The notes beneath the pieces were generated by a model. That model worked only from the letters and a program-made list of their open reading frames with translations, ran no database searches and was not told the DNA's origin. Below are positions 23,847 through 51,072 of a stretch of DNA of 64,000 bases, one piece after another. Positions within the stretch are counted from its first letter, which is position 1. Each line of letters begins with the position of its first letter. The DNA comes from Methanoculleus chikugoensis (GTDB lineage Archaea; Halobacteriota; Methanomicrobia; Methanomicrobiales; Methanoculleaceae): NCBI RefSeq assembly GCF_900095385.1, contig NZ_FMID01000028.1, positions 1-64,000 on the forward strand, written 5' to 3'. A program made the position numbers and the translations under genes.

Positions 23847-24053
23847 TTCTGCAGAGGTAGAGTGGGTTATCAGAGGTGGTGTTCAGCCGGATCTCTGTCT
23901 ATTCAAATCTTATTTGTTATCCGTTGCCAATAAATCTTGCATTTCGTGATTCGCGGCATACCCGGGTTGCGGGGTGGGCTGATCGTATCTTCCGGCGTTC
24001 CTCCTGCTCCGATCGACGCGAATTTCAATCGGTAAAAGGTTGTTATCGGGCCG

Positions 24054-24104
24054 GAGGATCGCCGGCACCACGAGTATGGGAGAGAGGCCGGGCGGATACC
24101 CTAA
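24054..24104 (+). pseudogene. Fossil of the 3' end of the iron-sulfur flavoprotein gene
   Basis: The stretch ggatcgccggcaccacgagt followed by gagagaggccgggcggatac and cctaactcccctcc repeats the last codons and stop of the gene at 19780-20448 (20394-20448), with an internal loss of about 7 bases. It sits directly after HEAT copy 2 in the same arrangement as the original. It shows that the duplication that produced the two HEAT genes reached into the flavoprotein gene. Confidence 0.75.
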
Positions 24105-33899: not shown

Positions 33900-34345
33900 A
33901 GGTACGGGTTCGTGAAGCCCAGGTTCGGGCTACCCTCTCGGTGAACCGGGAACTGATCCTGCTCTACTGGCAGATCGGGCGGGATATTATACAGCGGCAG
34001 CAGGAGGAGGGCTGGGGAGCGAAGGTGATCGACCGGCTTTCGGCGGACCTTCGGAGAGAATTTCCGGATATAAAAGGCTTTTTCTTCGCGAAACCTCAAG
34101 TACATGAGCGCGTTTGCACGAGCATATCCGGACGAGGCAATTGTGCAGGAGGTGCTTGCACAAATTACCTGGTATCACACGGTCACGCTGCTTGACAAGG
34201 TGAAGGACCCGGCGGCCCGGGAGTGGTACATCCGCAAAACCATCGCGAACGGCTGGTCGCGGAACGTGCTCGTGCACCAGATCGAGAGCGGTCTCTGTGA
34301 ACGCGAAGGACGGGCGGTCACCAACTTTTCGGCGACCCTGCCGGG
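33890..34345 (+). pseudogene. Decayed YhcG/DUF1016 (PDDEXK nuclease family) remnant
   Basis: The translated DNA matches the DUF1016 N-terminal domain: REAQVRATLSVNREL, LLYWQIGRDIIQRQ, GWGAKVIDRLSADLRREF in one frame up to about 34080, then SRNLKYMSAFARAYPDEA and ITWYHTVTLLDKVKD, REWYIRKTIANGWSRNV in another frame from about 34089. The frame changes at the T/C-rich stretch at about 34075-34090, where four extra bases separate KGF from SRNLKYM. The gene has no start of its own, and after NFSATLP (34331) the sequence no longer matches, so the C-terminal nuclease domain is absent. Confidence 0.75.
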
Positions 34346-34733
34346 TGCGGATAACGTGTGGATACATGGGTGTGGTATGGTAGCGCACTGGACGATACCT
34401 CTCGCACGAGAGGGAGCCGCGATCGTCGTCCGGGGCGAGGGCGACGATCCCCACGCGCCCGACAGGATCGACTACGAGGTTCGCGGCGGCCCCGGCGGGG
34501 TTGAAATTGTGCCACCGCCTGTGGCACAAACGACGGGGAGTCGCCTGCGCCGGAAAGCGGCGACGTTCCGTTCTCGGGAATCAGAAGGCACCGGCACTCC
34601 AAGCATGAACGAACCCCGCTACCGAGATCAGGAAACAGTTCAGTGCGGTCATCGGCGACTGCAGGGTGCTCCCTGACGTCCAATCGTCACGGCGATCGAC
34701 GGCATGGTGCCTCTACACCGGGTCTACGCGGGA
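34346..34733. other. Degenerate stretch without a supported gene
   Basis: About 390 bases between the YhcG remnant and the TBP gene. An open frame continues the remnant for some 110 codons, but it has no recognisable domain and is probably fortuitous. Confidence 0.45.
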
Positions 34734-35252
34734 CTACGCAACATTCTTGATCTTTGCCTTCAGCCCGGACGCGAACGCCTCCATCGAGTCCAGGTCTTTG
34801 AACCCGGCGAAGATCACCTTCCCCGACGAGAAGATGAGAGCGGTCCCTGCGTCGCCCCGGTAGATCAGACCCGGGAACTGTTCGGGCTCGTACTCGACCT
34901 GCTCCATCCTGAGCGCGACGACGAGTTGCAGGAGCGGGATCTCGATCTGGAAGTCTTCCATGCCGACGATGTTCCTGACCTCCGGTGGCGACGCGAGTGA
35001 AGGGTCGATGAGGGGCGAGATACGGGTGAGGAATTCCCGATAGGAGGTATCGACCTCGTCGAGGGACGCAAGGCCGTAGATGATGTATTTCCCGCTCCTG
35101 TAGATGGTGGCCTTCCCTCGGGAGAGGAGGATGTAGGCCCCGTGGTAGTTCTCAGGATTATATCGGTAGTTTGTATCGGGGAGCTCCGGCAACCGCTCAA
35201 ACGAGACAGACTGGTGAAGGTCGCCGGAAGCGACGATGTTGATGATCTTCAT
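34734..35252 (-). CDS. tbp: Divergent TATA-binding protein (TBP paralogue)
   Basis: A 172-aa protein with the two-fold TBP repeat: IVASGDLHQSVSFERLPELPDTNYRYNPENYHGAYILLSRGKATIYRSGKYIIYGL, then LQLVVALRMEQVEYEPEQFPGLIYRGDAGTALIFSSGKVIFAGFKDL. Both lack the phenylalanine pairs of ordinary TBP that kink the DNA at their usual positions as far as can be judged by eye, and the linker is short. The ATG at 35252 (MKIINIVASGDL) is the natural start. A specialised or DNA-binding-altered TBP is inferred. Confidence 0.75.
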   Translation of the reverse strand: MKIINIVASGDLHQSVSFERLPELPDTNYRYNPENYHGAYILLSRGKATIYRSGKYIIYGLASLDEVDTSYREFLTRISPLIDPSLASPPEVRNIVGMEDFQIEIPLLQLVVALRMEQVEYEPEQFPGLIYRGDAGTALIFSSGKVIFAGFKDLDSMEAFASGLKAKIKNVA

Positions 35253-35271
35253 TCCCGAAAAGATATGGGAC

Positions 35272-35700
35272 TTACTCCCGGAGATACCTTCCCCCGACCG
35301 GGACAAACCGTTCGGGTTTCTTCACTGAATCGTATTTTCGGACATCCTCGAGTTCGAGGGCCATCCAGGGCCGCTTTCGGGGCACCTCCTTCCTGACCCT
35401 GGCCCCCTGCCACCGTTCCTGGTTCTTGACGTAGGCTTTTGCCTCCTCCCGGGTGAGGAAGATCGCATCGCCGAAGGTCTCGAAGAACGCGAGGGGGTCT
35501 TCGTTGATGACGATCCGCTTGATCGTCGCCTCCCCGGCGTAGCCGGTGTCCTCGTGGGACTGGTAGAAGACGAGCTTCATGCCGCTCCGGAGTTCCTTGA
35601 AGACGGTGGCGGGTTTGATGAAGACGGTCTTGCCTTCGGCAAAGAAGCGTTTCATGTACTGTTTCGGGACGGGGAAGGTGACGCCGGTGATCTCGGACAT
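35272..35700 (-). CDS. DUF365 family (PUA-like) protein
   Basis: A 142-aa protein with a PUA/ASCH-like fold: MSEITGVTFPVPKQYMKRFFAEGKTVFIKPATVFKEL, MKLVFYQSHEDTGYAGEATIKRIVI and IFLTREEAKAYVKNQERW. This is the archaeal DUF365 family of presumed RNA- or nucleic-acid-binding proteins. It is 3 bases downstream of the EVE gene and 19 upstream of the TBP gene, so the three probably form an operon. Confidence 0.7.
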   Translation of the reverse strand: MSEITGVTFPVPKQYMKRFFAEGKTVFIKPATVFKELRSGMKLVFYQSHEDTGYAGEATIKRIVINEDPLAFFETFGDAIFLTREEAKAYVKNQERWQGARVRKEVPRKRPWMALELEDVRKYDSVKKPERFVPVGGRYLRE

Positions 35701-35703
35701 CGG

Positions 35704-36153
35704 TTATGCCTCCACTCCGGCCCGCTTGAGGATGAGCCGGTAGTCCTCCTCGGGGATCTCGCGCATGGCTATCCTGAGGTGGCCGCTCCACATCGTTTTG
35801 TTCGTGATGAATGTGAGATCCCCGATCAGCGGCTTGAACTCAAGGGGTTTTGCGAAGACTGCCACCGGCCTGACCTTCATGCGGTAGGGGAAGACCTCGT
35901 CGCCCATCTGCGGAGGGGTGATGAAGAGGCGGGCGTGGTCTTCGTAGGGCTCGGAGGCGACTTCGTAGGCGCCGGTTATCGCGGAGGGGAGGACCGTGTC
36001 GCCCTCTTTTTCCTGCCGGACGTATACGAGGATGGTGTCGCCGGGCTTCACCCGCTGCATGAGGGTTTTGTTCCGCTTTGGAACTCCCCAGATGTGCTTC
36101 TTATCGAGGATCTTGGCGTTGTCGCGGTTCGAGGAGGCGATCCAGTGGGTCAT
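35704..36153 (-). CDS. EVE-domain (UPF0310) protein
   Basis: A 149-aa EVE/PUA-fold protein. Typical pieces are MTHWIASSNRDNAKI, IWGVPKRNKTLMQRVKPGDTILVYVRQ and the C-terminal LIGDLTFITNKTMWSGHLRIAMREIPEEDY. EVE domains bind modified bases in DNA or RNA and often occur in restriction or defence contexts. It heads the EVE-DUF365-TBP operon and is divergent from BREX. Confidence 0.8.
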   Translation of the reverse strand: MTHWIASSNRDNAKILDKKHIWGVPKRNKTLMQRVKPGDTILVYVRQEKEGDTVLPSAITGAYEVASEPYEDHARLFITPPQMGDEVFPYRMKVRPVAVFAKPLEFKPLIGDLTFITNKTMWSGHLRIAMREIPEEDYRLILKRAGVEA

Positions 36154-36334: not shown

Positions 36335-37117
36335 GTGCAGTACCGTATCAGCGTTCAATCATATCTCAAAGATGCAGGCTTTTTAAACGGAGTCGGAGTG
36401 CACACCGCCCGAACAATAATGTTCAAAGAGATTTCAACCATTCTGGGCACAACTGATGTAGATACTTCGTTCGATGAAATCAAGGGTAAAGTAATCGATG
36501 AGAACCTACTCCAAAAGGCCAGCATCTCCGGGAGACGAAAGTCATTTGCTCATCTGAAGAAAGCATACGGGCTCGATCTCGACATCCCAATTTTCAGAGC
36601 GCTCCGCTGGGCATGGACCGTGAGCGAAGAAGGCGAACGTCCACTCCTGGCACTTCTCTGTGTTCTCTGTCGCGATGCATCTCTCCGTGTTTCAGCATCT
36701 TACATCCTTACCCTGCCTATTGGAACGTTCGTGGAGAAACAGGCGCTGTCCTCAGAACTGGAGCGCGCATTTCCAAACGTGTATAGCCCGGCAGTGGTCG
36801 AGTCGATGACCAAAAACCTGCTCTCATCATGGACTCAGTCCGGGCATCTCCAGGGGTTCCAGAATAAGAGTCGAGCGAAAGCCTCGTCTCACGCCGGGTC
36901 AACTGTGTTTGCGCTTTATATTGCGTCTTTGACCGGATTAAAGGGGCGGACACTCTTTGACTCACTCTGGGTTCGGGCGCTCGATGCAACCGATCGCGAA
37001 CTTCAGGACTCAATTCACCTGGCATCGCGGCGTGGGTGGCTGAAATATCACGAAAGTGGTGGTATGATGGAGATTACTTTAATACCTGAGATATTCGCCG
37101 GGGCGAGAGGGCTATGA
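36335..37117 (+). CDS. brxA: BREX type 1 protein BrxA-like (first gene of the operon)
   Basis: A 260-aa protein in the position of BrxA (DUF1819). A family-like stretch is DENLLQKASISGRRKSFAHLKKAYGLD; the C-terminal half is helical (LYIASLTGLKGRTLFDSLWVRAL; RGWLKYHESGGMMEITL) and resembles winged-helix endings of BrxA-type proteins. BrxA is a DNA-binding factor of the BREX phage-defence system. The start is GTG, with a TATA element close upstream. It overlaps brxB by 4 bases (ATGA). Assignment rests on position and weak similarity. Confidence 0.6.
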   Translation: MQYRISVQSYLKDAGFLNGVGVHTARTIMFKEISTILGTTDVDTSFDEIKGKVIDENLLQKASISGRRKSFAHLKKAYGLDLDIPIFRALRWAWTVSEEGERPLLALLCVLCRDASLRVSASYILTLPIGTFVEKQALSSELERAFPNVYSPAVVESMTKNLLSSWTQSGHLQGFQNKSRAKASSHAGSTVFALYIASLTGLKGRTLFDSLWVRALDATDRELQDSIHLASRRGWLKYHESGGMMEITLIPEIFAGARGL

Positions 37118-37665
37118 GTAAGATAGATGATCTGCTCGCGGCGTATCAAAAACAGATCTCGCTCCCCTGGAATGATCTACTATCGCCGCAGGAGAAGGTC
37201 TGGTTCTGCATTTACGATCCTTCACAGGAACGCCGGCTCAGGAAGCAGATGGAGGCGTTCGCCATCGTCACCCAGGAGACGGGGCATGACTGGATCCCGA
37301 TCGACGTTACGTTCCTCTTTGAGCAGTTTCTCGCATCCAACGAGCATCACGAGAAATACTACCGGAATCCCAGGCTCATGAAATTCGAAGAGAAGAACTT
37401 CCTCGAGCATCTCTCAAACTACGTTGGGAGCCGGGCCAGTTCGAGCACTCCATCGTCTGTTGTTGCGATCAGCGGTATTGGGGCACTGTATGGCATCATA
37501 CGTGTCAGCAAGATCGTCGAGGAGATTGTGAAGACCGTCCCGATTCCCGGTCGCCTTCTGGTTTTTTTCCCTGGAGAGCGGGATGGAAGAAACTACCGAT
37601 TATTAAAGGCACGGGATGGGTGGAACTATCTCGCCACCCCTATTGAGGCAGAGGAGATGGAGTAA
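37114..37665 (+). CDS. brxB: BREX protein BrxB
   Basis: A 183-aa DUF1788 protein. It starts MSKIDDLLAAYQKQISLPW, contains WFCIYDPSQERRLRKQMEAF and RLLVFFPGERDGRNYRLLKARDGWNYLATPI. BrxB is a small core BREX protein of unknown biochemical role. It overlaps brxA upstream, and its stop shares bases with the brxC start (TAATG). Confidence 0.85.
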   Translation: MSKIDDLLAAYQKQISLPWNDLLSPQEKVWFCIYDPSQERRLRKQMEAFAIVTQETGHDWIPIDVTFLFEQFLASNEHHEKYYRNPRLMKFEEKNFLEHLSNYVGSRASSSTPSSVVAISGIGALYGIIRVSKIVEEIVKTVPIPGRLLVFFPGERDGRNYRLLKARDGWNYLATPIEAEEME

Positions 37666-40600
37666 TGACAGTAAATTCCCTTACAGTCTTAAATCGCGAG
37701 GTATTCTACAACGATCCTACGACCTACGCCCTACCAAACGACGGCGTGGCGAGGGTAGGGCCGCTTCCGGAGGACAGAGAGGACAAGCAATGGGCTGTTG
37801 CACGTTACGAACTCGAACACTTCGTCTGTGAAGGATCTTACCACGACGGGCTAAAGAGAATCCTTAAATCGTATATCGAGAACCTCGATCAGGGATCACA
37901 ACCCGCCGTCTGGGTGAGTGGGTTCTTTGGGTCAGGTAAATCGCACCTCGTTCGCGTGCTCGAGTTTCTGTGGTCAGATCTCAGTTTTGTCGACGGGGCC
38001 ACCGCCCGCGGGATCTGCAATCTTCCATCAGACATTGAAGAAGCCTTGAGAGAGTTAACGACAGAGGCTCGTCGGGCTGGGGGTATCTGGTCTGCGGCCG
38101 GGACACTCTCCAGCGGCGATTCAGATGATCCTCGTCTTGCGGTGCTCCAGGTGGTGCTCCGTTCCGCAGGCCTGCCTGATATCCTCGACATCGCACGCGT
38201 ACATCTCTGGCTCGCGCACGAGGGTATCCTCGACGGCATGCGCGAGAAGTTACGGGCGATCGGGAAAGAGAAGGATATGGAACTGCCGTTCGTTTCGGAA
38301 CATTTTGCGCAGGCCCTTCTTGAACTGAAACCAAGGTTCGCCGAGTCCGCCACACAGGCAACCGAGTTTCTCAGCAACCAGTTCATCACGGACCGCCAGA
38401 TGACGAACGCCGAACTGATCGGCCTGATGAAGGACATCTTCCTCCTCAAGGGTTCGGCCAGAGGGCAGGTTCCTCTTGTTCTTCTCGTGCTCGATGAGGT
38501 GCAGCAGTACCTGACGATCGGAGAAGGGAGCAAGCAGCTGCTCGCATTTCAGGAGATCATCGAGGCCTGCTGTAAAAGTTTCGGGGGGAAGTTGCTCGTC
38601 GTCGCTACCGGGCAGGAAGCCCTCCAGGCGAACGTCCTGCTCCAGAGGCTTCAGGGGCGCTTTTCGGTCCCGGTTCAACTGGAGTCGAAGGATGTCGATG
38701 TCGTGCTTCACCAGACTGTGCTTCGCAAGAAGGAGTCGATGAAGAAGCCGTTGCAGTCGGTCTTCGACCAGGTGAACGGGGAGATATCAAGGCATCTCGG
38801 CGGGACGAAACTCGCTCACCAGATGGAGGACGACGCCGCCCTCCTCCTCGATTATCCGCTTCTTCCCACCCGAAAGCGGCTATGGGATAGGATTCTGCAC
38901 GCTGTTGACACCGGCGGCATGAGTACGCAGCTACGCACGCAGCTGCGTCTGGCATACGAAGGTTCCCGGAGCACTGCGCTTGAACCCATCGGGAGCGTCA
39001 TTCCGGCAGACTTCATCTTCAACCAGTTGAGCACCTACCTGATACGGAACGGGCTGCTTGCGGATGAGATCAACGAGATGATCCGGAAGGAGGATGACGG
39101 GACACCGGACGGGAACCTCAGGTCACGCATCTGTGCACTGATCTACCTCATCCAGTATGTCGACGAGTCGTTCGGGGTTTACGCGAACGCACAGACGTTA
39201 TCCGATCTTCTGGTCACGGATCTCCCTGCAGGGAGCGAGATGCTGCGGAAGAAGGTTCCTGAGCTTCTTCTGGAACTCAATGACCGCGGCGTGATCAGCG
39301 ATGTGGGGAACCGGGTCTACCATATCCAGACCAAGGAGGGAAAGGCCTGGGACTCGGATTATCGGACGAAGCTTGCGCAGTACAAGGCGGACGATTCGAG
39401 AGTCATGTTCAAGCGGGATGAACTGCTCGGCCGCGCGGTTGAAGAAAAGTTGCGTGGGCTCAGCCTGGTCCAGGGGAAGAGCAAGACCCCGCGCCAGACG
39501 GAATTTACTGTCTTCGGGTCGCAGAAACCGGAGATCGGCACGAAAGTTCCAGTCTGGATTCGCCACGGGTGGGAGGTGCCGGAGTCCCAGGTGAGATCCG
39601 AGGCACAGGAGGAGGGGACCGAGAGTCCCCTGCTCATGGTCTTCCTGCCCCGGATGCACCACAATGAGATCCGGAATGAGATCGCCGGAATGCTTGCCGC
39701 CACCGAGATACTTCAGAGCCGGCCGACACCGACGACGTCGGAAGGGCATCAGGCCAGAACCAATATCGAGGCAAAATGCAGGAACCACGAAACGAAACTC
39801 ACGGAGTATATCACATCCATTCTTGCGAACACGAAGTTGTATCCCGGGGGCGGGAGCCCGGTTGACTGCCCGGATCTGGTCAAAGCAGTCCGCGACGCGG
39901 CGCAGAACTCGATCCTCCGGATGTTTCCGCGGTTCAGCGATGCGGATGCCGTCGGCTGGGACCGGGTGATCCCCCGGGTAAAAGCAGATGCAAAAGCTCC
40001 GCTTGAGACGATCGGCTTTGCCCGGGCGACTGAGGAGCATCCGGTCTGCAAAGAGATCCTGCACCGGCTGCACTCGGGTCCAAAGACCGGCAATGAGATC
40101 CGGAACGCGCTCGACGCTCCGCCGTTCGGGTGGCCGAGGGATGCGATAGACGGAGCGCTCATTGCCCTCTGTGCCTCGGAGCATCTGGTCGCCACACTGC
40201 AGCGGAAACCGGTTCCCGCGAAGGAGATCGACCGGAAGAGTCTTGGGAAGATGGAGTTCCGCACGGAGACGGTCGTACTCGAGACCAACGATAAGATCGC
40301 CCTGCGGGGTGTCTGCAGCGTCCTCGCGATCCCGACCGAGGGTGTTGCAGAGGTTGAGTCCGCACGCAGTGTGCTCGATGCGATACGTGCGCTCGCCGGG
40401 AAGACCGGAGGTAAAGCGCCGCTGCCGGAGCCGGAGGTGCCGGAGTATCTCTCTGAACTGCGGACACTCTCCGGGAATCAGCTCGTTAAAGCGATCGTGG
40501 CCCGTCAGTCGGAGATCCGGAGTGACGTCCGGAGATGGCAACAGACGGCCGGACGGATCGAAGAGCGCATGCCTGCGTGGACACAGCTGGCAACCCTGAT

Positions 40601-41147
40601 CGATTATGCGGAGGGGCTCGACGTCCTCGACGAGGTCCGGGAACAGTATGACGCGATACTGGAGCGGCGGAGCCTGCTCAACGATCCCGATCCGGTGCCT
40701 CCTCTCCTGCAGAAGATCCGGAGCAGGTTGCGCGAAGCCCTGACCGAGGGGGCGAAGCAGGTGAAACATGCGCAGGAAACCGTGCTTGACGAGTTGCAGG
40801 ACGACGCCCTCTGGATGCGGCTCCCAGAGTCTCAGAAGGGGGATCTCCTGAGCAGGCACCAACTTGTCGTCCAGTCCCTCCCCTCGCTGAAGGACGATGT
40901 GGCCATAATCGGGCAGCTCAAGAAGACGCCGCTTGCCTCGTTCGCGCAGACAGCCCGCCTGATCGAAGGGTCTCTGCCTGAGATCAGGGCGGAGATGGCG
41001 AAGCTGCTTGAGCCGAAGACGGTGACGGTGCGGCTCGCATCGGGGGTCGTCGTTAAGACGGAGGAGGATCTCGATGCTTACCTGGCCGACCTGAGGCTCC
41101 GGGCAATGAGCGAACTGGAGCAGGGCAACCCGGTGGTGTTGAAGTGA
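37665..41147 (+). CDS. brxC: BREX ATPase BrxC
   Basis: A 1160-aa P-loop ATPase, the usual BrxC length. The Walker A motif GFFGSGKSHLVRVLEFLWSD lies near residue 87 and the Walker B-like LLVLDEVQQYL near residue 280. A C-terminal region has coiled-coil-rich segments. BrxC is required for BREX methylation and phage exclusion. It overlaps the GTG of pglX by 4 bases. Confidence 0.93.
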   Translation: MTVNSLTVLNREVFYNDPTTYALPNDGVARVGPLPEDREDKQWAVARYELEHFVCEGSYHDGLKRILKSYIENLDQGSQPAVWVSGFFGSGKSHLVRVLEFLWSDLSFVDGATARGICNLPSDIEEALRELTTEARRAGGIWSAAGTLSSGDSDDPRLAVLQVVLRSAGLPDILDIARVHLWLAHEGILDGMREKLRAIGKEKDMELPFVSEHFAQALLELKPRFAESATQATEFLSNQFITDRQMTNAELIGLMKDIFLLKGSARGQVPLVLLVLDEVQQYLTIGEGSKQLLAFQEIIEACCKSFGGKLLVVATGQEALQANVLLQRLQGRFSVPVQLESKDVDVVLHQTVLRKKESMKKPLQSVFDQVNGEISRHLGGTKLAHQMEDDAALLLDYPLLPTRKRLWDRILHAVDTGGMSTQLRTQLRLAYEGSRSTALEPIGSVIPADFIFNQLSTYLIRNGLLADEINEMIRKEDDGTPDGNLRSRICALIYLIQYVDESFGVYANAQTLSDLLVTDLPAGSEMLRKKVPELLLELNDRGVISDVGNRVYHIQTKEGKAWDSDYRTKLAQYKADDSRVMFKRDELLGRAVEEKLRGLSLVQGKSKTPRQTEFTVFGSQKPEIGTKVPVWIRHGWEVPESQVRSEAQEEGTESPLLMVFLPRMHHNEIRNEIAGMLAATEILQSRPTPTTSEGHQARTNIEAKCRNHETKLTEYITSILANTKLYPGGGSPVDCPDLVKAVRDAAQNSILRMFPRFSDADAVGWDRVIPRVKADAKAPLETIGFARATEEHPVCKEILHRLHSGPKTGNEIRNALDAPPFGWPRDAIDGALIALCASEHLVATLQRKPVPAKEIDRKSLGKMEFRTETVVLETNDKIALRGVCSVLAIPTEGVAEVESARSVLDAIRALAGKTGGKAPLPEPEVPEYLSELRTLSGNQLVKAIVARQSEIRSDVRRWQQTAGRIEERMPAWTQLATLIDYAEGLDVLDEVREQYDAILERRSLLNDPDPVPPLLQKIRSRLREALTEGAKQVKHAQETVLDELQDDALWMRLPESQKGDLLSRHQLVVQSLPSLKDDVAIIGQLKKTPLASFAQTARLIEGSLPEIRAEMAKLLEPKTVTVRLASGVVVKTEEDLDAYLADLRLRAMSELEQGNPVVLK

Positions 41148-44100
41148 CGGTGCTGGAGAAGTCCACCCGGAACCAACTGGACAAGGCGGTGCAGGCCGCC
41201 CGCCGGGCCGCGACCGCCGGCGCCGACCGAGCCCTGCGGGCGCTCGCCGTGGACCAGGAGAAGAAGCCGGCGCATCTGACCCCGGAGCAGAGCGAACTGC
41301 GCCGCCGGCTCCGTGTCCGGTGCCGGGGGCTCGGGTCATGGCAGGACCTCGTCCGGGCAGTCGCGTATGAGCAGTGGCACCGGATGCTGTTTGCCCGGTT
41401 CCTGGCCGAGAACGACCTCCTGATCCACCCGGAGTATCATGCGCCGGTGACGCTTGAGGAGTGTGCCGAGATCGCGCGGGACCGCGGGCTCGACCCGTGG
41501 GAGGTCGCGGCCGAGTATGCGGCCGGGATGCTGCCGGGCATCTTCCAGCAGGACGATCCCCTCCTGCTCCTGAAGTATGCCCCGGAGGACCGGGCCGCCC
41601 TGCAGGAGATCCTTACGGGGATTCCGGCGGAGACATTCCGCACGCAGGACGCGCTCGGCTGGACCTACCAGTTCTGGCAGACGGAGGAGAAGGCGACGGT
41701 CAACAAGTCCGGGAAGAAGATCGAGGGAGCAGACATCTGCGCCGTGACGCAGCTCTTCACCGAGCCGTACATGGTGCAGTTCCTGCTGCAGAACACGCTT
41801 GGCGCCTGGTGGCTCGACCGACACCCGGAGAGCCCGCTCCGTGCGGAGTGGGTCTACTATAAGGATCAGGTGCAGCACGACTTCTCAGCGTTCCCGGAGA
41901 AGGCCGGCGACCTGAAGATCCTCGATCCTGCCTGCGGCAGCGGACATTTCCTCGTCGAAGCGTTCCACATGCTGCTTGCGATGCGGCAGGAGGAGGGCGA
42001 ACCCCTTGAAGCGGCGATCGCGGGCATCGTCCGGGACAACCTGCACGGGCTTGAGATCGATCCCCGCTGCATCCAGATCGCCGGGTTTGCCGTCGCGATG
42101 GAGGCGTGGAAGGCCGGTTTCCCCACCGACGAGTACCTGCCGCTCCCGAACCTCGCCTGCGTCGGCCTCCCCATCCGTGCGGAGAAGGAGGAGTGGCTGA
42201 AGCTTGCCGGCGGGGACGGGCTGCTCGAAGGCGAACTTGAGAAGTACTACGACCTCTTCAAGAACGCCGACAGCCTCGGCAGCCTGATCCAGATCGAGGA
42301 GGGCGGCACGCTCGTCCCCGGCGATGTGCTGACGCAGAAGCTGGAGAGGGCGCTAGCAAAGGAGAAGGCGACCGGCGATCCGGTGGCGGAGGCGTTCGGG
42401 GAGACGGCGAGCGGGGTGTTGAAAGCGGTCCATTACCTAAGAAAGAAGGACTTCCATATTGTGGTGACGAACCCGCCGTTTTTAGGATATAGAAAACAGA
42501 TCAAGATATTGCAAGACTATTGTGAACAAAAATATCCCCATTCAAATGCCGATTTAGCAACGTCGTTTTTTGAAAGGTGCAACTCATTCGTGAGACCCTA
42601 TGGGCAATATGGGCTTGTAACTCCCCAAAACTGGCTATATTTAACCACATATGAGATATTAAGAACCACTTATCTTCATAATCAAATGTTTGGCACGGTT
42701 GCTAGACTAGGAGCGAATGCATTTGAAACGATTGGTGGATCTGTTGTTCAAGTAGCATTGATTACATTAGCAAATACGCATCCAAAAGAGGAATCTATCT
42801 TTCTCTTTTCGGATCTATTAGCAACTAAATCGACGATTGAAAAGTCCACGGAACTAAAAGAAAATTTTAAAGAAATCCATCAAAAAGATCAATTGAAAAA
42901 TCCAGATGCACGAATCGGATTGGATGCAGATTTGAGTTGTTCTAAGACGCTGGATAATTTTTGCTATTCAGCACAGGGCATAGGAACAACAGATAACCCT
43001 CATTTTGTAATAAAATTTTGGGAGATTGCTGAAATAAATGGAGATTGGGTTTACTTCCAGACTGCAAATAAAACAAATAGTCTAATTGGCGGATATCATT
43101 CTCTATTGAGATGGGGGTCGGAATATTTTGATTACATTAACCTACTCAAATCGCAAAACAGGATTGGGGGGGGATGGCAAGCCGGGCGTTTAGCATGGGG
43201 TCACAAGGGTTATGCAATTAATGTAACCGGTTCAAAATATGTTACGATTTACTCTGGATGTAAATTTGATACCACGATTGGAGTTGTCATACCCCGTGAA
43301 GAGAGATACCTTGCAGCGATTTACCGTTATATTACTTCAACAGAATATATCGATAATTTATTGAAAATCGATCCCACATTAAGCATAACTGAAGGGACGC
43401 TAATTAAGGTCCCCTTCGACCTCTCTTATTGGCAAAAAGTCGCTGATGAGATGGGCCCGCTCCCCGAACCCCACTCCGACGACCCCACCCAGTGGCTCTT
43501 CAAGGGCAACATCGCCGGCAGCGAACTGCCGCTCCACGTTGCCATCGCCCGGATGCTCGGCTACCGCTGGCCGGAGCAGCCGGCAGACGATCCCGCCGAC
43601 GCCTTCGCCGACCAGGACGGTATCGTCTGCATCCCGCCGGTCTGGGGCGAGCGCCCGGCGGTCGAACTGCTCCGGAGCATCCTCGCCGCCGCGTACGGGA
43701 GCGAGTGGTCGCCGCGGAAGGAAGAAGAACTCCTGCGGCAGGCCGGATACATGAAGAACGGCGGCCTCGAAGGGTTCCTCCGCGACGAGTTCTTCGCGTC
43801 GCACTGCAAGCTCTTCCACCACCGGCCGTTCATCTGGCAGGTCTGGGACGGCACGAAAGACGGGTTCTCGGTGCTGCTCAACTACCACAAACTCAACCGG
43901 AGGACGCTTGAGAAACTGATCTACACCTACCTCGGCAACAACTGGATCTCGCAGCAGAAGGACGAGGTCCGGCAGGAGAAACCCGGCGCCGAGCGGAGGC
44001 TTGCCGCCGCCGAAGCGCTCCAGGCGAAGCTCGAGCAGATCCTCGAAGGCGAGCCGCCGTATGACATCTACGTCCGGTGGAAACCGCTCCACGAGCAGGC

Positions 44101-44332
44101 GGTGGGCTGGGAGCCGGATTTGAACGACGGTGTGCGGATGAACATCCGGCCGTTCATGGAGGCCGGCGTCCTGCGGTGGAAACCGAACGTCAAGTGGGGC
44201 AAGGACCGGGGCACCGATCCGGTCCCGAACTGCTCCGGGACGACGGAGCGGTTGAACGACCTGCACTTTACGCTCGCGGAGAAGCGGAAGGCGAGGGAGA
44301 ATGCTGGAAGGATTGAGACAGAAAGTCAGTGA
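41144..44332 (+). CDS. pglX: BREX adenine-specific DNA methyltransferase PglX
   Basis: A 1062-aa N6-adenine methyltransferase. SAM-binding motif I DPACGSGHFLVEAFHML lies near residue 263 and the catalytic NPPF near residue 444. Residues about 435-765 (42450-43430) cover the presumed target recognition region. This segment is AT-rich and uses different codons from the GC-rich flanks, so it looks replaced by recombination. The start GTG overlaps brxC. The end overlaps the next gene by 32 bases. BREX methylates the host at one strand of a short site to mark self. Confidence 0.92.
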   Translation: MTVLEKSTRNQLDKAVQAARRAATAGADRALRALAVDQEKKPAHLTPEQSELRRRLRVRCRGLGSWQDLVRAVAYEQWHRMLFARFLAENDLLIHPEYHAPVTLEECAEIARDRGLDPWEVAAEYAAGMLPGIFQQDDPLLLLKYAPEDRAALQEILTGIPAETFRTQDALGWTYQFWQTEEKATVNKSGKKIEGADICAVTQLFTEPYMVQFLLQNTLGAWWLDRHPESPLRAEWVYYKDQVQHDFSAFPEKAGDLKILDPACGSGHFLVEAFHMLLAMRQEEGEPLEAAIAGIVRDNLHGLEIDPRCIQIAGFAVAMEAWKAGFPTDEYLPLPNLACVGLPIRAEKEEWLKLAGGDGLLEGELEKYYDLFKNADSLGSLIQIEEGGTLVPGDVLTQKLERALAKEKATGDPVAEAFGETASGVLKAVHYLRKKDFHIVVTNPPFLGYRKQIKILQDYCEQKYPHSNADLATSFFERCNSFVRPYGQYGLVTPQNWLYLTTYEILRTTYLHNQMFGTVARLGANAFETIGGSVVQVALITLANTHPKEESIFLFSDLLATKSTIEKSTELKENFKEIHQKDQLKNPDARIGLDADLSCSKTLDNFCYSAQGIGTTDNPHFVIKFWEIAEINGDWVYFQTANKTNSLIGGYHSLLRWGSEYFDYINLLKSQNRIGGGWQAGRLAWGHKGYAINVTGSKYVTIYSGCKFDTTIGVVIPREERYLAAIYRYITSTEYIDNLLKIDPTLSITEGTLIKVPFDLSYWQKVADEMGPLPEPHSDDPTQWLFKGNIAGSELPLHVAIARMLGYRWPEQPADDPADAFADQDGIVCIPPVWGERPAVELLRSILAAAYGSEWSPRKEEELLRQAGYMKNGGLEGFLRDEFFASHCKLFHHRPFIWQVWDGTKDGFSVLLNYHKLNRRTLEKLIYTYLGNNWISQQKDEVRQEKPGAERRLAAAEALQAKLEQILEGEPPYDIYVRWKPLHEQAVGWEPDLNDGVRMNIRPFMEAGVLRWKPNVKWGKDRGTDPVPNCSGTTERLNDLHFTLAEKRKARENAGRIETESQ

Positions 44333-45950
44333 TTGGATAAATGCTGATCCCTATAGGCGTGGGTTTGGTATTTATAGTGCCCTTTTTATATCGGCATTTG
44401 CTGCAGCTTTGTTGATTGTATTAACTTTTCCAGAATTCAGTATCACCGAAGAGAGCGCCCGATCTTTTATTAGCACTTCCAACCAGATCCAGGCAACAAT
44501 TCTTGCTATTGTAATTTCTCTCACGCTCCTTGCAGTTGAAATGACTGCATCAAAGTATTCGCCGAGAGTCATTGAAATATTCAAGAAAAGTGCGACACTG
44601 TGGTTTTTCCTCTTTAGCTACATTCTCTCTATTATAATCGGCTCGATAATTCTCATACAAATCAATGGTTCTAATTCGCCGATACCTACTACACTCGGAA
44701 CGCTTTTTGTTCTTGTATTAGGGATGTATCTGTCCTTAATGCTTATTCTCTACGTCTTCAATACCCTAGATCTCCTAAATATGGAGAGAATTGTTGAAAA
44801 TCTCGTGGATTTGATCGATACAGAGACGATCAGTCCGCAAGTTGATCCGTTCCAATCAGTCTTTGATGTCATTTATGGCGCAATTAAGATTAATGATTTT
44901 ACAACCATGAGCACGGGGTTGACCTACGTTGAAAGACGATTTAAACAGCTTATCGCTAATGGTCCGGCGAATTGGCAGGACGATTACATTTCGTTCCGGC
45001 TCTTTGATGATATCAAACGCTGTGGATTCTTGCTCATCGAAAAGAGGGAAGATAAATATGTGTTTGAGATTATCACTCGTTTGAAAACAATTAATGAATG
45101 GGCTTTCAAAGAGCAGCGGATACTTGTTCTTAATAGATCTTGCTCCGCGATAGAAGATGTTGCAGTTAAAGCGTGCGAATATAATCTGGTTTCTGTTGTT
45201 AATCATTCACTCACAACATTAAAAGAAACAGCCAAATCTATTGGAGGCATTGAGGGATTATCTCAAGATGATGGTATTACGAAAAAATGGAGGCACACAT
45301 TATTCTCGTTCGTTGAATCGATAAGCAACATTGGTAAAGCTTCGGTTAGGCATGATCTGGACACTTCGTCACAGAAAGCAATTGAAATACTTGATAGCCT
45401 TGGAAGGTATGCAATAGAAAAGAACCTTATCTTCGAGGATGATTTTGTCTTTAAAAGAATCGGTGAGATAATACTCGAATATGTAAACCGGGATAAAACT
45501 ACGTTAGTTAATTCATCGGTTCAGATGTTGCAATTCCTTGGCGAGTATGCCGTCGATCACAATCATAGCAAGGAAGCGCTTTGGATACTGGATGAATTAA
45601 GAAAAATTGGGAAAAACGCAGCGCATCAAAAGAAGGCGCAGGTTATCCAGAGGGTGGCAGGTGCAATTCAATCTATTGCCATTTGTGCTACAGCAAAAAA
45701 GAGGAGCGATATTGAAGCAAATACTATTGACTTAATTGTGAAGTTTAAATTGATATACCCTGCACTTTTTAAAAGTGGGAAGGGAGTTCAGTTATTTGAT
45801 TATAACCCTCCCGATACAATCACAATTCCTAAAGAAGAGTATGATTTAGTATTCCAGTACGAGTCTTACCTAGTGGACGAATATCTTCGTCCACCAGACG
45901 ATTGGGAAGGCGATTATGACGATGATGGAACAATTGTCATCTCGCTCTAA
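44301..45950 (+). CDS. DUF2254-like four-helix membrane protein inside the BREX operon
   Basis: A 549-aa protein with four predicted transmembrane helices at about 24-45, 64-84, 98-118 and 128-152, then a long soluble helical part of about 390 residues. The loop ...VEMTASKYSPRVIEIFKKS fits the DUF2254 signature. A strong GAGGGAGA site precedes the ATG, which overlaps the pglX end. DNA is AT-rich and distinct from the flanking GC-rich BREX genes, as is the pglX centre, so it was probably acquired with it. No known BREX core gene has this architecture; a toxic, sensing or abortive role is speculation. Confidence 0.75.
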   Translation: MLEGLRQKVSDWINADPYRRGFGIYSALFISAFAAALLIVLTFPEFSITEESARSFISTSNQIQATILAIVISLTLLAVEMTASKYSPRVIEIFKKSATLWFFLFSYILSIIIGSIILIQINGSNSPIPTTLGTLFVLVLGMYLSLMLILYVFNTLDLLNMERIVENLVDLIDTETISPQVDPFQSVFDVIYGAIKINDFTTMSTGLTYVERRFKQLIANGPANWQDDYISFRLFDDIKRCGFLLIEKREDKYVFEIITRLKTINEWAFKEQRILVLNRSCSAIEDVAVKACEYNLVSVVNHSLTTLKETAKSIGGIEGLSQDDGITKKWRHTLFSFVESISNIGKASVRHDLDTSSQKAIEILDSLGRYAIEKNLIFEDDFVFKRIGEIILEYVNRDKTTLVNSSVQMLQFLGEYAVDHNHSKEALWILDELRKIGKNAAHQKKAQVIQRVAGAIQSIAICATAKKRSDIEANTIDLIVKFKLIYPALFKSGKGVQLFDYNPPDTITIPKEEYDLVFQYESYLVDEYLRPPDDWEGDYDDDGTIVISL

Positions 45951-45979
45951 CTTACATCAGACTACATGAGGAAATCCAG

Positions 45980-48277
45980 ATGAAACAAACCTTCCTTGAC
46001 CGGGTCCGCGAATCGCTTACCAGCGCCATGAACGATTACAACCGGGAAGACGTCGTCCGGCAGCAGGTGGTCGTCTTCCCGGACAAGAACGGCGAGTGGG
46101 CGCCCATCGTTGCCCGCCTCCGGGACAGCCTCCCCATCATCACCTTCGGCGCCTATGACCCGGAACACCTCACCGGCCCGGCCATCTACCTCCGCTGCCT
46201 CGTCGCCCATACCATCGACTCACCCCTCACAAAAGACCAGCCGGTCATCGTGTACCTCCCCGGATACTCACGCGAGCAGCTCCGGAACCTCGAAGACTGC
46301 CCCGATGAGATCAAACCGCTCGCCGGCCTCCAGTACCTCGGCAACGTCTGGTCGCAGCGGAACGGGCGCGACTGGACCGTGCTTGCGTTTCTGAAGACGA
46401 GCCAGGGCGGCCTCTCCATCCAGGTCCACGACGACGCCGAGACACGGGATGCCATCCGGAGCGCCGCGGCCGTCCTCGCCGACGAATCTGTCGAGTTCCT
46501 GAAAGCAAAGGAGCCGCTCAACGCGGCCTTCTTTGACGAACTCCACCACCCCGACCCGAACAAGCAGATCCTCCAGTGGATGAACGCCCCGGCCGGGGAA
46601 GAGCAGCGGATGAAGGTCAGCGGCGACTGGGGAGCGTTCTGTAAGATATGCGGGAAAGAGTACGACTTCGACCCGGAGAAGGACGGTGCGTCTACCGCCG
46701 CGGAGAAACTGGGCTCTCAGTCCGGCAGGTGGGCGGACGTATGGGAGCGGTTCACGGAGAAGCCCGGGGCCTACCCTGAGATCCCCCGGCTCCTCCGTAG
46801 CGTAAAATTGCCCGGCTGGATGCCCTATCCGGACTCATGGCCGCAGTACAACGACGCACGCGAGAAAGAACTCTACCTGGTCTTCATGGCCCTTGCCGAG
46901 GCCTCCCCGGAGGAAGCGCGCAGGCAGATCGCGGATCTGGAACGGGTACATGCCCCGCGGCGGGAGTGGGTCTGGGCCGGAATGGGGGAGAGCCCCCTCG
47001 CACGGGCTCTCGAACACCTCGCGCACCTCGCGATCATCACAAACGACATGATGTTCGGGGGAACCGTACTCGAGCAGGCAGAGCGCTACGCCAATACCAC
47101 ATGGCAGGCCGACGATGCCGTGGTCCGTGCACTTGAGCAGGCGACGGACAGGAAGAGCAGCGAGGCCGTTGCAGCCGTTGTCAACGTGCTCTACCGGAAC
47201 TGGCTCGACGCGATGGCAGAGGCGTTCCAGAAGGAGTGGCTGCGGGAACCGGCACCGATGCGCAAAGAGAACCAGGAACCCGTTGCCGGCGAGGTCCTGC
47301 TCTTTGTCGACGGCCTCCGCATGGACCTCGGCCATCGCCTCTCTTCGAGTCTGAAGGATGCCGGATACTCCTGCAGCCTCTCCCACCGCTTCAGTGCTCT
47401 TCCAACGCAGACCTCGACGGCAAAACCGGCGGTCATGCCGATCGCCGGTGAACTCGTTGCCGGGGAAAAACTGACCCCCAGAACGAAGAGCGGGGCGCTC
47501 GCGACGATCACCGCATTACGCAGCATCCTTAACGACAAAGGGTTCAGCGTACTCAGCGACTCCGAGACCGGCGATCCTGCGCACTCCGCCTGGACAGACT
47601 GCGGAGACATCGATACGGAAGGGCATAACAAAGGGGCTGCCCTCCCTGCAGTCCTCGACCGGGAGCTCGAGAAGATCCGCGACCGGGCGATCGAACTCCT
47701 TGAGGCCGGCTGGCAGCAGGTGCGCATCGTCACCGACCACGGCTGGCTCCTCCTCCCGGGCAAACTCCGGAAGACCGAACTGAAACCCGGGCTCACCGAG
47801 GTGAAGAAGGGGCGCTGCGCCGAGCTGCGGGCCGACGCAGAGACCGACTACCCCGTGGTCCGGTGGTTCTGGGACCACAACATCCGGATCGCTCTGGCTC
47901 CCGGAGTCTCCTGTTTCGAGGAGGGGAAAGAATACGAGCACGGCGGCCTCAGCCCGCAGGAGACTGTCGTGCCGGAGATTGTCGTAAAAATCGGTGCGAC
48001 CCGCAGCAAGGGTATCGAGATCGGCCAGATCCGGTGGGTCGGAATGATCTGCAGGGTTCATGTTGACGGTGCCGAAGGCTACACTGTCGACATCCGGTGG
48101 AGACCGGCCGATACAGAGAGCAGCGTCACGACCGGCAGCCGTACAGTCAGCATCGAGGGCAACGCCTCGCTCACCGTCGAAGATAGCAGCAACGAAGGGA
48201 AAGAGGCCTGGCTCGTCGTTCTGGACAGCCAGAACTCTCCCGTAGCACAGCGAGGTGTCCGAATAGGACTGGAGTGA
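45980..48277 (+). CDS. pglZ: BREX alkaline-phosphatase-superfamily protein PglZ
   Basis: A 765-aa protein with the PglZ domain: VLLFVDGLRMDLGHRL (metal-ligand Asp) near residue 440 and VRIVTDHGWLLLPG near residue 600, where TDHGW is typical. The N-terminal half is of the BREX type 1 kind. PglZ is a core BREX component with predicted hydrolase activity. GAGGA lies 9 bases before the ATG. Confidence 0.92.
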   Translation: MKQTFLDRVRESLTSAMNDYNREDVVRQQVVVFPDKNGEWAPIVARLRDSLPIITFGAYDPEHLTGPAIYLRCLVAHTIDSPLTKDQPVIVYLPGYSREQLRNLEDCPDEIKPLAGLQYLGNVWSQRNGRDWTVLAFLKTSQGGLSIQVHDDAETRDAIRSAAAVLADESVEFLKAKEPLNAAFFDELHHPDPNKQILQWMNAPAGEEQRMKVSGDWGAFCKICGKEYDFDPEKDGASTAAEKLGSQSGRWADVWERFTEKPGAYPEIPRLLRSVKLPGWMPYPDSWPQYNDAREKELYLVFMALAEASPEEARRQIADLERVHAPRREWVWAGMGESPLARALEHLAHLAIITNDMMFGGTVLEQAERYANTTWQADDAVVRALEQATDRKSSEAVAAVVNVLYRNWLDAMAEAFQKEWLREPAPMRKENQEPVAGEVLLFVDGLRMDLGHRLSSSLKDAGYSCSLSHRFSALPTQTSTAKPAVMPIAGELVAGEKLTPRTKSGALATITALRSILNDKGFSVLSDSETGDPAHSAWTDCGDIDTEGHNKGAALPAVLDRELEKIRDRAIELLEAGWQQVRIVTDHGWLLLPGKLRKTELKPGLTEVKKGRCAELRADAETDYPVVRWFWDHNIRIALAPGVSCFEEGKEYEHGGLSPQETVVPEIVVKIGATRSKGIEIGQIRWVGMICRVHVDGAEGYTVDIRWRPADTESSVTTGSRTVSIEGNASLTVEDSSNEGKEAWLVVLDSQNSPVAQRGVRIGLE

Positions 48278-48281
48278 TAGA

Positions 48282-50330
48282 ATGGTGGATCTTGACACGC
48301 TTGATGCAAAAGTAACAACGGCGTTTGAAGGCTACGTGGTCCGGAAGGACCTCGCCCAGAAGTTCCGTGGCGGCTACCCCGTTCCAACCTACGTCGCCGA
48401 GTTTCTGATCGGTAAGTACTGTGCGACCACCGACGAAGCAGAGATTCGCGAAGGCCTCGCCATCGTCCAGCGGCAACTCACCGAACGGATCGTCCGCGCC
48501 GGTGAGAACGAACTCTTCAAAGCCCGCGCCCGCGAGCAGGGCTCGGTCAAGGTGATCGACCTGATCACAGCCCGGCTCGACACGCGCTCAGACACGTTCG
48601 TGGCCACCATCCCTACCCTCCTCCTCAACGATGTCTACATCCCGGCCGAGATGGTCTACGAGAACGAGCGGATGCTGACCGGCGGGTTCTACGCCGAGGT
48701 CGAACTCGAGTATGGCTCCGGCCCCGGCGAGGGCAAGAGCGGCCGACCGTTCTCCATCACCAACCTCCGGCCGATCCAGCTCTCCAAGCGAAATGTCCTC
48801 AATGATCTGGCCCGTGGCCGCGAGGAAATGACCACCCGTGAGTGGAAAGACTTCCTGATCCGCAGTATCGGCCTTGAACCTTCTTCCTTTGACGAACGGG
48901 CGCAGAACGTCCTCTTCCTTCGGATGGTCCCGTTTGTCGAGAAGAACTACAACTGCATCGAACTCGGCCCGCGGGGCACGGGCAAGTCCTATCTCTACCA
49001 GCAGATCAGCCCCTACTCGCACCTCGTCTCCGGTGGCAAGGCGACCGTAGCCAAGATGTTCGTCAACAACGCCTCCGGGCAGCGTGGTCTCGTCTGCCAG
49101 TATGATGTCGTCTGCTTCGACGAAGTCTCCGGGATCAGGTTCGACCAGAAGGACGGCGTCAACATCATGAAAGGCTACATGGAGTCGGGCGAGTTCAGCC
49201 GCGGCCGCGAGAGCATCCGCGCCGAGGGCGGCATCATCATGCTCGGGAACTTCGATGTCGACGTCGAGCACCAGCAACGGATCGGCCACCTCTTCGGCCC
49301 GATGCCTCCCGAGATGCGAGACGACACGGCCTTCATGGACCGGATCCACAGTTACATCCCGGGATGGGATTACCCGAAGATCCATCCCTCCATGATGACC
49401 GAACACTACGGGCTCGTCAGCGACTTCCTCAGCGAGTCCTGGCGGCAGCTCCGGAACGGCAGCCGGCTCCACCTGATCACCGACCGGCTCCTTCTCGGTG
49501 ACGCACTGTCGGGCCGCGACCGTCGTGCGGTCCTGAAGACGATCGACGGTCTTCTCAAACTTCTTTATCCGTCACCTGACTGCGAGATCTCAGATGACGA
49601 TCTCGAATGGGCCACTCGTATTGCTCTCGAGTCACGGCGCCGGGTGAAGGAGCAACAGAAGCGTATCGGATCGGCTGAGTTCCGGAACACGATGTTCAGC
49701 TACCGGCTCGGGCCGGATGGGATTGAGCAGTATGTCACCACCCCGGAACTTCACAGGGAGAACGCGATCAGCCCCGAACCGCTGCCGCCTGGACAATGCT
49801 GGGCCGTAGGGCCTGGCGAGGAGGGAGGGGGTAGCGGCCTCTATAAGATCGAGGTGACGGTCACACCCGGCTCAAGCATCAGGTTGATCAACGTCAAGGC
49901 GCCGGCAGGGCTTCGTGAGAGCCTCCGGGCGGCCGAGCAGGTGCTCTACACTCAGGCTCGCCATCTGGTTGGCGATCACGATCCTGGAGATGCCGAGTAT
50001 TCGGTCCAGGTGAGATCGATGACGCCGGTCGGCGCTGGCGCATCTCTCTCGGTCTCGATCCTCATGGCTCTCGCCTCGGCCACGCTCAACAGGAGTCTTA
50101 AGGGAGGCATGGCGATCGCAGGAGGTATGAGTGTCGGGGGCACTATCGAGCCTGTATACCATGCGCTCGACATGGCAGAGCTTGTGGTCGAAAAGGGAGC
50201 GACCATGCTCCTTCTCCCTGTTGCAAGCCGCCGGCAGATGAACGAGATGTCGGACGAGTTAGCAGCCCGGCTCACCGTGATCTACTATACCGATCCCCGC
50301 GATGCGTTCCTTAAGGCGATAGGAGAGTGA
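48282..50330 (+). CDS. brxL: BREX Lon-related AAA+ protein BrxL
   Basis: A 682-aa protein that defines BREX type 1. The AAA+ part has Walker A ELGPRGTGKSYLYQQ near residue 227 and Walker B VVCFDEVSG near residue 280. The C-terminal Lon-like domain has GAGASLSVSILMALASA near residue 580. In Lon, a catalytic Lys follows the strand after the Gly-rich turn; here the matching stretch is PVYHALDMAELVV and no lysine occupies the expected place, so peptidase activity is doubtful. It is 4 bases after pglZ. Confidence 0.92.
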   Translation: MVDLDTLDAKVTTAFEGYVVRKDLAQKFRGGYPVPTYVAEFLIGKYCATTDEAEIREGLAIVQRQLTERIVRAGENELFKARAREQGSVKVIDLITARLDTRSDTFVATIPTLLLNDVYIPAEMVYENERMLTGGFYAEVELEYGSGPGEGKSGRPFSITNLRPIQLSKRNVLNDLARGREEMTTREWKDFLIRSIGLEPSSFDERAQNVLFLRMVPFVEKNYNCIELGPRGTGKSYLYQQISPYSHLVSGGKATVAKMFVNNASGQRGLVCQYDVVCFDEVSGIRFDQKDGVNIMKGYMESGEFSRGRESIRAEGGIIMLGNFDVDVEHQQRIGHLFGPMPPEMRDDTAFMDRIHSYIPGWDYPKIHPSMMTEHYGLVSDFLSESWRQLRNGSRLHLITDRLLLGDALSGRDRRAVLKTIDGLLKLLYPSPDCEISDDDLEWATRIALESRRRVKEQQKRIGSAEFRNTMFSYRLGPDGIEQYVTTPELHRENAISPEPLPPGQCWAVGPGEEGGGSGLYKIEVTVTPGSSIRLINVKAPAGLRESLRAAEQVLYTQARHLVGDHDPGDAEYSVQVRSMTPVGAGASLSVSILMALASATLNRSLKGGMAIAGGMSVGGTIEPVYHALDMAELVVEKGATMLLLPVASRRQMNEMSDELAARLTVIYYTDPRDAFLKAIGE

Positions 50331-50532: not shown

Positions 50533-51072
50533 ATGGGCTTTCTCGATAAACTAGCAAAGACGCTCGACCTCTGGCTGGCGGACGAAGAAGCGGAAGACGT
50601 CAACTACCAAAAAGGGACGGACTTCGAGAAATATGTCGCAGGCCTTTTCACCCGGAGATCCGACTACTTCGCCATCAGCGACTGGACGCGAGACAATCAC
50701 GACAAGAGCAAGGGCATCTATGTGGAGTCCAACACCAACCCGGATCTCGTTATTCGCTACAAGCCGACGAACGAGAAGTTTGCCGTCGAATGCAAGTACC
50801 GCTCCGGATTTTACAGGAGCCAGAAGATCAATGGGCCCGTCGTCAAATGGGCGGCTCCCGACCAGATCAGGAGATATAACGCCTACTCCCGGTCGAACCG
50901 CATCCCTGTCTTCGTGGTGATCGGTGTCGGAGGCAGCCCGAAAAAGCCGGCCACGATGTTCTGTATCCCTCTCGGAGATGCGAAATATCCCGAAATCTTC
51001 CCGAGCGTCTTTGAAAAATACGAACGGGACCCCGGAAAGACCTTCTTCTGGCGGGACGGGATGCTGAAATAG
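50533..51072 (+). CDS. PD-(D/E)XK nuclease-fold protein
   Basis: A 179-aa protein with the restriction-endonuclease core: NPDLVIRY (acidic residue) followed by FAVECKYRS (ExK) at about residues 76-97, plus a conserved helix with DFEKYVAGLF before it. The rest has the motif VVIGVGGSPKKPATMFCIPL. Such proteins act as restriction or repair nucleases. It directly follows BREX, consistent with a defence island, but no partner methylase or DNA-binding domain is seen. Confidence 0.65.
   Translation: MGFLDKLAKTLDLWLADEEAEDVNYQKGTDFEKYVAGLFTRRSDYFAISDWTRDNHDKSKGIYVESNTNPDLVIRYKPTNEKFAVECKYRSGFYRSQKINGPVVKWAAPDQIRRYNAYSRSNRIPVFVVIGVGGSPKKPATMFCIPLGDAKYPEIFPSVFEKYERDPGKTFFWRDGMLK

Follow-up and report, generated by a model that had tools for sequence, protein, structure and literature searches.

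The closest described relatives of the locus considered here are the type 1 BREX systems of Escherichia coli HS, Salmonella D23580 and StySA, and Acinetobacter, which have six genes in a common order and a cargo slot between pglX and pglZ. Type 1 BREX is further characterised by the methylation of a non-palindromic 6-bp motif and by the exclusion of phages. The slot of the Salmonella BREX island holds PARIS (PMC11341690), and that of the E. coli locus L133 holds ariAB-like genes. Published accounts give PglX a gamma-class methylase domain, a target recognition domain (TRD), a spacer, and a C-terminal region (PMC11341690, PMC11842806). Divergence of pglX between E. coli HS and StySA has been described (PMC9009780), and published BREX systems are already known to differ in their TRDs and to have cargo genes nested in them (PMC9009780, PMC11341690, PMC12839542). 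BREX targets are chosen via PglX, and natural changes of target have been little described. In type I restriction-modification systems, the specificity of HsdS is exchanged by domain movement.

The BREX operon of Methanoculleus chikugoensis

The window analysed here is a stretch of 64,000 nucleotides from the methanogen Methanoculleus chikugoensis (order Methanomicrobiales), taken from an assembly of 70 contigs that is 99.7% complete. Judged by sequence, the genes at 36335-50330 make up a complete type 1 BREX, with the following features.

36335..37117, + strand: brxA (PADLOC BrxA, E 6e-74)
37114..37665, + strand: brxB (PADLOC BrxB, E 2e-62; Pfam PF08747 above cut-off)
37665..41147, + strand: brxC, P-loop ATPase (PADLOC BrxC, 1278 bits; Walker A GFFGSGKSH in the translation)
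41144..44332, + strand: pglX/brxX, adenine methyltransferase and specificity factor, 1062 aa (PADLOC PglX, 1214 bits)
41924..41944, + strand: SAM-binding motif DPACGSG, aa 261, in the GC-rich N-terminal part of pglX (sequence)
42419..43439, + strand: AT-rich exchangeable cassette of pglX, aa 426-765 (maximum-likelihood change-points; fourfold-site GC 0.38 versus 0.90/0.94)
42470..42481, + strand: catalytic motif IV NPPF, aa 443, just within the upstream edge of the cassette (sequence; exchanges in E. coli begin here too)
42878..43537, + strand: TRD, approximate, aa 579-798 (alignment to the exchange edges of E. coli PglX alleles)
44301..45950, + strand: 549-aa membrane protein of the DUF2254 family, encoded as cargo between pglX and pglZ (PF10011)
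45980..48277, + strand: pglZ (PADLOC PglZ, E 2e-265)
48282..50330, + strand: brxL, Lon-like (PADLOC BrxL, E 4e-284; PF13337, PF20442, PF05362)

The genes brxA, brxB, brxC, pglX, pglZ, and brxL stand in the standard order in one operon on the plus strand. All six have PADLOC matches, with E-values from 2e-62 (brxB) to 0 (brxC and pglX), and neighbouring genes overlap or nearly do so. PADLOC and Pfam thereby confirm the gene list of a preliminary description of this DNA, which had named these genes and a membrane protein, in one direction and with overlaps. Within 36335-50330 there is neither brxHI nor brxHII, the type 5/6 helicase genes, nor a second brxC, and the only extra gene encodes the DUF2254 protein. 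The locus differs from the type 1 BREX of E. coli, Salmonella, and Acinetobacter in its archaeal host and in its slot, where the DUF2254 membrane protein replaces the PARIS of Salmonella or the ariAB-like genes of E. coli L133.

The window PglX is about 26% identical to the E. coli forms, and its relatives among solved PglX/BrxX structures are 8c45, 9ewz, and 8zek. Its sequence and its alignment to 8c45 and 9ewz reveal SAM motif I, motif IV, a TRD, and a C-terminal region, the same layout as in published PglX proteins. Residue 597 of the window protein corresponds to residue 664 of its Salmonella counterpart (8c45), the TRD of which begins at residue 662 (PMC11341690). The difference lies in the exchanged unit, which starts at motif IV and not at the TRD.

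Base composition of pglX

Over codons 426-765 of pglX (42419-43439), GC content falls from 66% to 38%, and GC at fourfold sites (GC4) is 0.90 in the N-terminal part, 0.38 in the centre, and 0.94 in the C-terminal part. A two-change-point likelihood fit to the composition of the gene placed the edges at 42419 (support 42416-42437) and 43439 (43409-43457), with a gain in lnL of 115 over no change. The AT-rich centre had previously been put at 42450-43430, and the contrast is indeed sharp. The upstream edge falls in the methylase domain, 17 codons ahead of motif IV, so the block is more than the recognition domain alone; motif IV and the rest of the second methylase half belong to it, together with the TRD. 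The GC-rich outer parts that were also described earlier hold as a contrast but not as a uniform background, as brxA and brxB are intermediate at 51-53%. The GC content of the DUF2254 gene is 39%. No mention of such an AT-rich cassette or of its two edges was found in the accessible open-access literature, GC-directed searching included.

The dip extends through the gene family. In a set of 48 related pglX genes, drawn from many bacterial phyla as well as from archaea and not all phylogenetically independent, GC4 of the centre lay below that of the N-terminal part in 47 and below that of the C-terminal part in all 48. A both-sided dip at the same relative positions was present in 44/47 pglX genes, compared with 8/43 brxC, 13/40 pglZ, and 6/33 brxL genes. 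It is absent from pglX of Ligilactobacillus salivarius (33% GC), but there the flanks are themselves AT-rich and a floor effect is possible. The earlier view that AT-richness marks a replacement special to this strain is not supported, given the same dip in nearly every related pglX.

Two other explanations of the dip have little to recommend them. The number of contigs in the assembly might suggest a chimera or a misjoined MAG contig, an extremely improbable explanation given that the reading frame is open across both edges, the gene overlaps are intact, and a Methanoregula BREX (L042) also carries this centre, again with matching flanks on either side. Conservation within pglX is lowest in the TRD, and the dip might be attributed to the amino-acid make-up or weak conservation of this domain. 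This too is very improbable: the dip is seen at fourfold sites, and at alignment columns more than 90% conserved GC4 is 0.76 in the N-terminal part, 0.44 in the TRD, and 0.71 in the C-terminal part, a dip of the same size as that at poorly conserved columns. Being equal at conserved and variable columns, it is not explained by constraint on amino acids or by selection on codons at conserved positions.

Exchange of the specificity cassette

Among the 48 pglX genes, upstream composition steps fall into two clusters, at aa 426-464 (motif IV) and aa 548-608 (TRD start), and the downstream step is mostly at aa 750-790. A search of E. coli with one plasmid pglX gave 69 records with flanks mostly 90-95% matching, of which coverage exceeded 80% for the query itself alone; a second E. 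coli allele as query gave 4 of 350 genomes. The 12 alleles that were retrieved from E. coli break either at motif IV (NPPY) or at the TRD start, and both kinds end in the spacer. Alleles with unrelated centres have flanks that are 90-100% identical. As these breaks match the positions of the composition steps, the step marks an exchangeable specificity cassette. Among the E. coli alleles examined, swapped and unswapped methylase halves showed no clear difference in GC.

Exchange is also evident in other lineages. For example, the near-identical operons of the methanogen loci L036 and L039 have pglX genes with identities of 96% in the N-terminal part, 99% in the C-terminal part, and 30% in the TRD, and in the Opitutae loci L054 and L055 the flanks are about 97% identical and the centres 28-60%. 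Together with the E. coli alleles, these sequences uphold the earlier reading of the pglX centre as the specificity part, exchanged between BREX operons. The preliminary description had held that an AT-rich centre in all archaeal pglX genes of diverse GC content, free of signs of recombination, would count against it; the AT-rich centre proves to be nearly general, and signs of recombination accompany it. Furthermore, in pglX of L033, L034, and L037 the methylase half is GC-rich and the dip is confined to the TRD, so the edge tracks the exchanged segment and not a fixed position.

HsdS resembles PglX in having swappable recognition segments between conserved parts, and its gene is also lower in GC4 (below hsdM/hsdR in 6/6 pairs from the window's order). 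PglX is unlike HsdS in combining methylase and specificity in one chain, with part of the catalytic domain moving too. The natural swap unit of BREX can in this way be located: it begins at motif IV or at the TRD start, ends in the spacer, and is marked by nothing more than its base composition. Its edges could serve as a natural design rule for altering BREX specificity and as a quick finder of exchanged alleles.

The cassettes may come from a shared AT-rich pool with two fixed upstream edges, which would serve bacterial and archaeal PglX alike and involve transfer between domains. We advance this tentatively and would put it at somewhat below an even chance. The evidence for cross-domain transfer comes from L033, an archaeal locus of the window's genus, and the Opitutae bacterium L055, whose TRDs are 64% identical over 187 aa compared with 45% in the N-terminal part. 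If the pool exists, the GC step would allow cassette edges to be recognised in any high-GC genome.

The slot between pglX and pglZ

The ATG of the DUF2254 gene overlaps the end of pglX by 32 nt. Its product matches PF10011/DUF2254 at 38.5 bits (gathering cut-off 28.8) over profile positions 9-162 of 368 only, and the C-terminal part of the protein lies outside the match. An AF2 model (pLDDT 79) has four long N-terminal helices, putatively transmembrane, followed by a helical-repeat domain, for which a fold search against the PDB returned generic helical repeats only. The protein has no PADLOC match and does not appear in the text of the 2026 BREX survey, and the accessible open-access literature yielded no mention of DUF2254 in defence.

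DUF2254 occupies the BREX slot in the window and in L032, L036, L039, and L037, the last from Methanocalculus chunghsingensis (G069), of the window's order, with the same gene map as L043. Its GC content is 31-44% in the contexts measured. In L129 (2796-10006), a DUF2254 relative lies directly after hsdS, overlapping its end, in a type I restriction-modification operon hsdR-hsdM-hsdS. No defence operon was identified in the other, partly annotated contexts (L124-L128, L130, and L131). DUF2254 genes thus recur in the slot as AT-rich cargo. The protein may act as a membrane effector or sensor, an anti-virus accessory, and we regard it as a newly recognised candidate accessory of BREX and, possibly, of type I restriction systems in methanogens.

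Other methanogens have DUF2254, the YhcG nuclease (PDC-S02), or HEC-01 in this slot, and HEC-01, PDC-S02, and DUF3800 cargo was found in L035, L036, L039, L042, and L043; these archaeal BREX use the same slot as the window, where the cargo is DUF2254. The pair of genes for an ATPase and a DUF4276 protein in L035, L042, and L043 was considered as PARIS, a name rejected on the PADLOC assignment of the pairs in L042 and L043 to HEC-01.

The cargo and the pglX centre are decoupled. In L032, a different pglX centre accompanies the same DUF2254 (64.9%), and L042 has the pglX centre of the window with DUF3800 and HEC-01 genes as cargo and without DUF2254. On this sequence evidence they are separate modules, and the earlier proposal that the specificity domain and the accessory gene were replaced together is not supported by these loci.

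Traces of rearrangement were observed in two slots. In L043 (12453-14760), the pglX 3' end borders DUF2254 on one side and is duplicated on the other, forming direct repeats of 313 bp and 91% identity. In L050 (14872-15661), the slot holds a fused remnant of the pglZ N-terminal and pglX C-terminal parts, as if two cargo slots had been stacked. Scars of both kinds are expected if cargo enters by recombination at the slot edges, and the L043 repeats are likely to be a scar of cargo gain by this route.

Age and origin of the cassette in the window

The operon most similar to that of the window is L032 (G067, from another family), with identities of 77% in brxC, 86% in the N-terminal part of pglX, 79% in pglZ, and 90% in brxL. 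Its pglX centre is 41% and 29% identical to that of the window, and the corresponding figures for L042 are 67% and 74%. Window and L032 are sisters in the brxC, pglZ, and brxL trees. In the tree of the pglX centre, the window groups with L042 (support 100/100), and a clade of window and L032 is rejected (AU 8e-6). On first branching, window versus L042, the pglX flanks disagree with pglZ and brxL. With one cassette common to the window and L042 and another in L032, the simplest account is a single change on the L032 branch. The window cassette has then probably been resident for a long time, remaining AT-rich as the composition of its flanks came to match that of the host. Its age rests on one partial contig, as L042, the sole relative with the same cassette, is a MAG contig beginning inside pglX. 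Dating by pairs with the same cassette was tried and set aside: TRD GC rises with flank GC at a slope of about 0.62-0.68, alike for related and unrelated TRD pairs, which follow host GC equally and so provide no clock. In a search for an empty insertion site, the left and right flanks of the operon were found not to be adjacent in relatives.

The preliminary description had instead proposed that the specificity domain and the accessory gene were replaced from an AT-rich donor, taken here as a recent event in the window lineage. The sharp edges, the unrelated centre of L032, and the strongest contrast among the 48 pglX genes (residual -0.27) would all suit such an event. We nevertheless consider it decidedly unlikely: the dip is family-wide, the same AT-rich cassette is present in the Methanoregula BREX, so that a single change on the L032 branch accounts for its distribution, and DUF2254 is common to the window and L032, which has another centre. 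Searches for the donor of the centre returned, as full-length matches in 393 genomes of the phylum, pglX only (24-37%); phages gave six weak matches and viral contigs one 35-aa stretch, neither a donor, and the best plasmid match was a pglX at 44%. Alternatively, the dip may be intrinsic to this region of the gene and kept in every host, not imported, either because selection acts on codons, on expression, or on DNA structure or because GC-biased gene conversion is lacking where alleles do not align. Its occurrence across phyla and host GC points in this direction, as do the AT-rich centres of the window and L042 despite a difference of 0.26 in flank GC4. We think this unlikely, as the methylase half is GC-rich in L033, L034, and L037, with the dip in the TRD only, and no dip is seen at the low GC of Ligilactobacillus, subject to the floor effect noted above.

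The reading that we favour, and consider likely, is a conserved BREX chassis with two plug-in points. The first would be the pglX cassette, either motif IV onward with the TRD (a long form, as in the window) or the TRD alone (a short form), swapped by homologous recombination in the conserved pglX flanks; each swap should change the motif that is methylated and protected. The cassette would be AT-rich wherever the host is mid- or high-GC, with the GC step marking its edges, and the pool of cassettes may itself be AT-rich. The second would be the slot between pglX and pglZ, with changing defence cargo, here the DUF2254 membrane protein. In the window genome both are probably old residents, inherited independently.

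Genes around the operon

Divergent from brxA, at 34734-36153 on the minus strand, are genes for an EVE-domain protein, a DUF365 protein, and an additional TATA-binding protein, a diverged copy that is 31-45% identical to the others in the genome. EVE and DUF365 genes also lie directly after brxL in L033 and L043, and a copy is located about 3 kb from hsdS in contig C36 of genome G000. It is possible that the EVE/DUF365/TATA-binding set is a BREX-linked reader or regulator cassette. Downstream of brxL, at 50533-51072 (+), is a gene for a 179-aa protein that has no Pfam or PADLOC family and no homologue in the BREX loci compared, and that contains a possible nuclease-like D...ExK pattern (VECKY). 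Near the operon, a truncated DUF1016_N (YhcG-type) fragment lies at 34104-34676 (+). Elsewhere in the window, at 20445-27583 (-), two adjacent genes encode giant HEAT-repeat proteins of 1133 and 1160 aa with near-identical N-termini.
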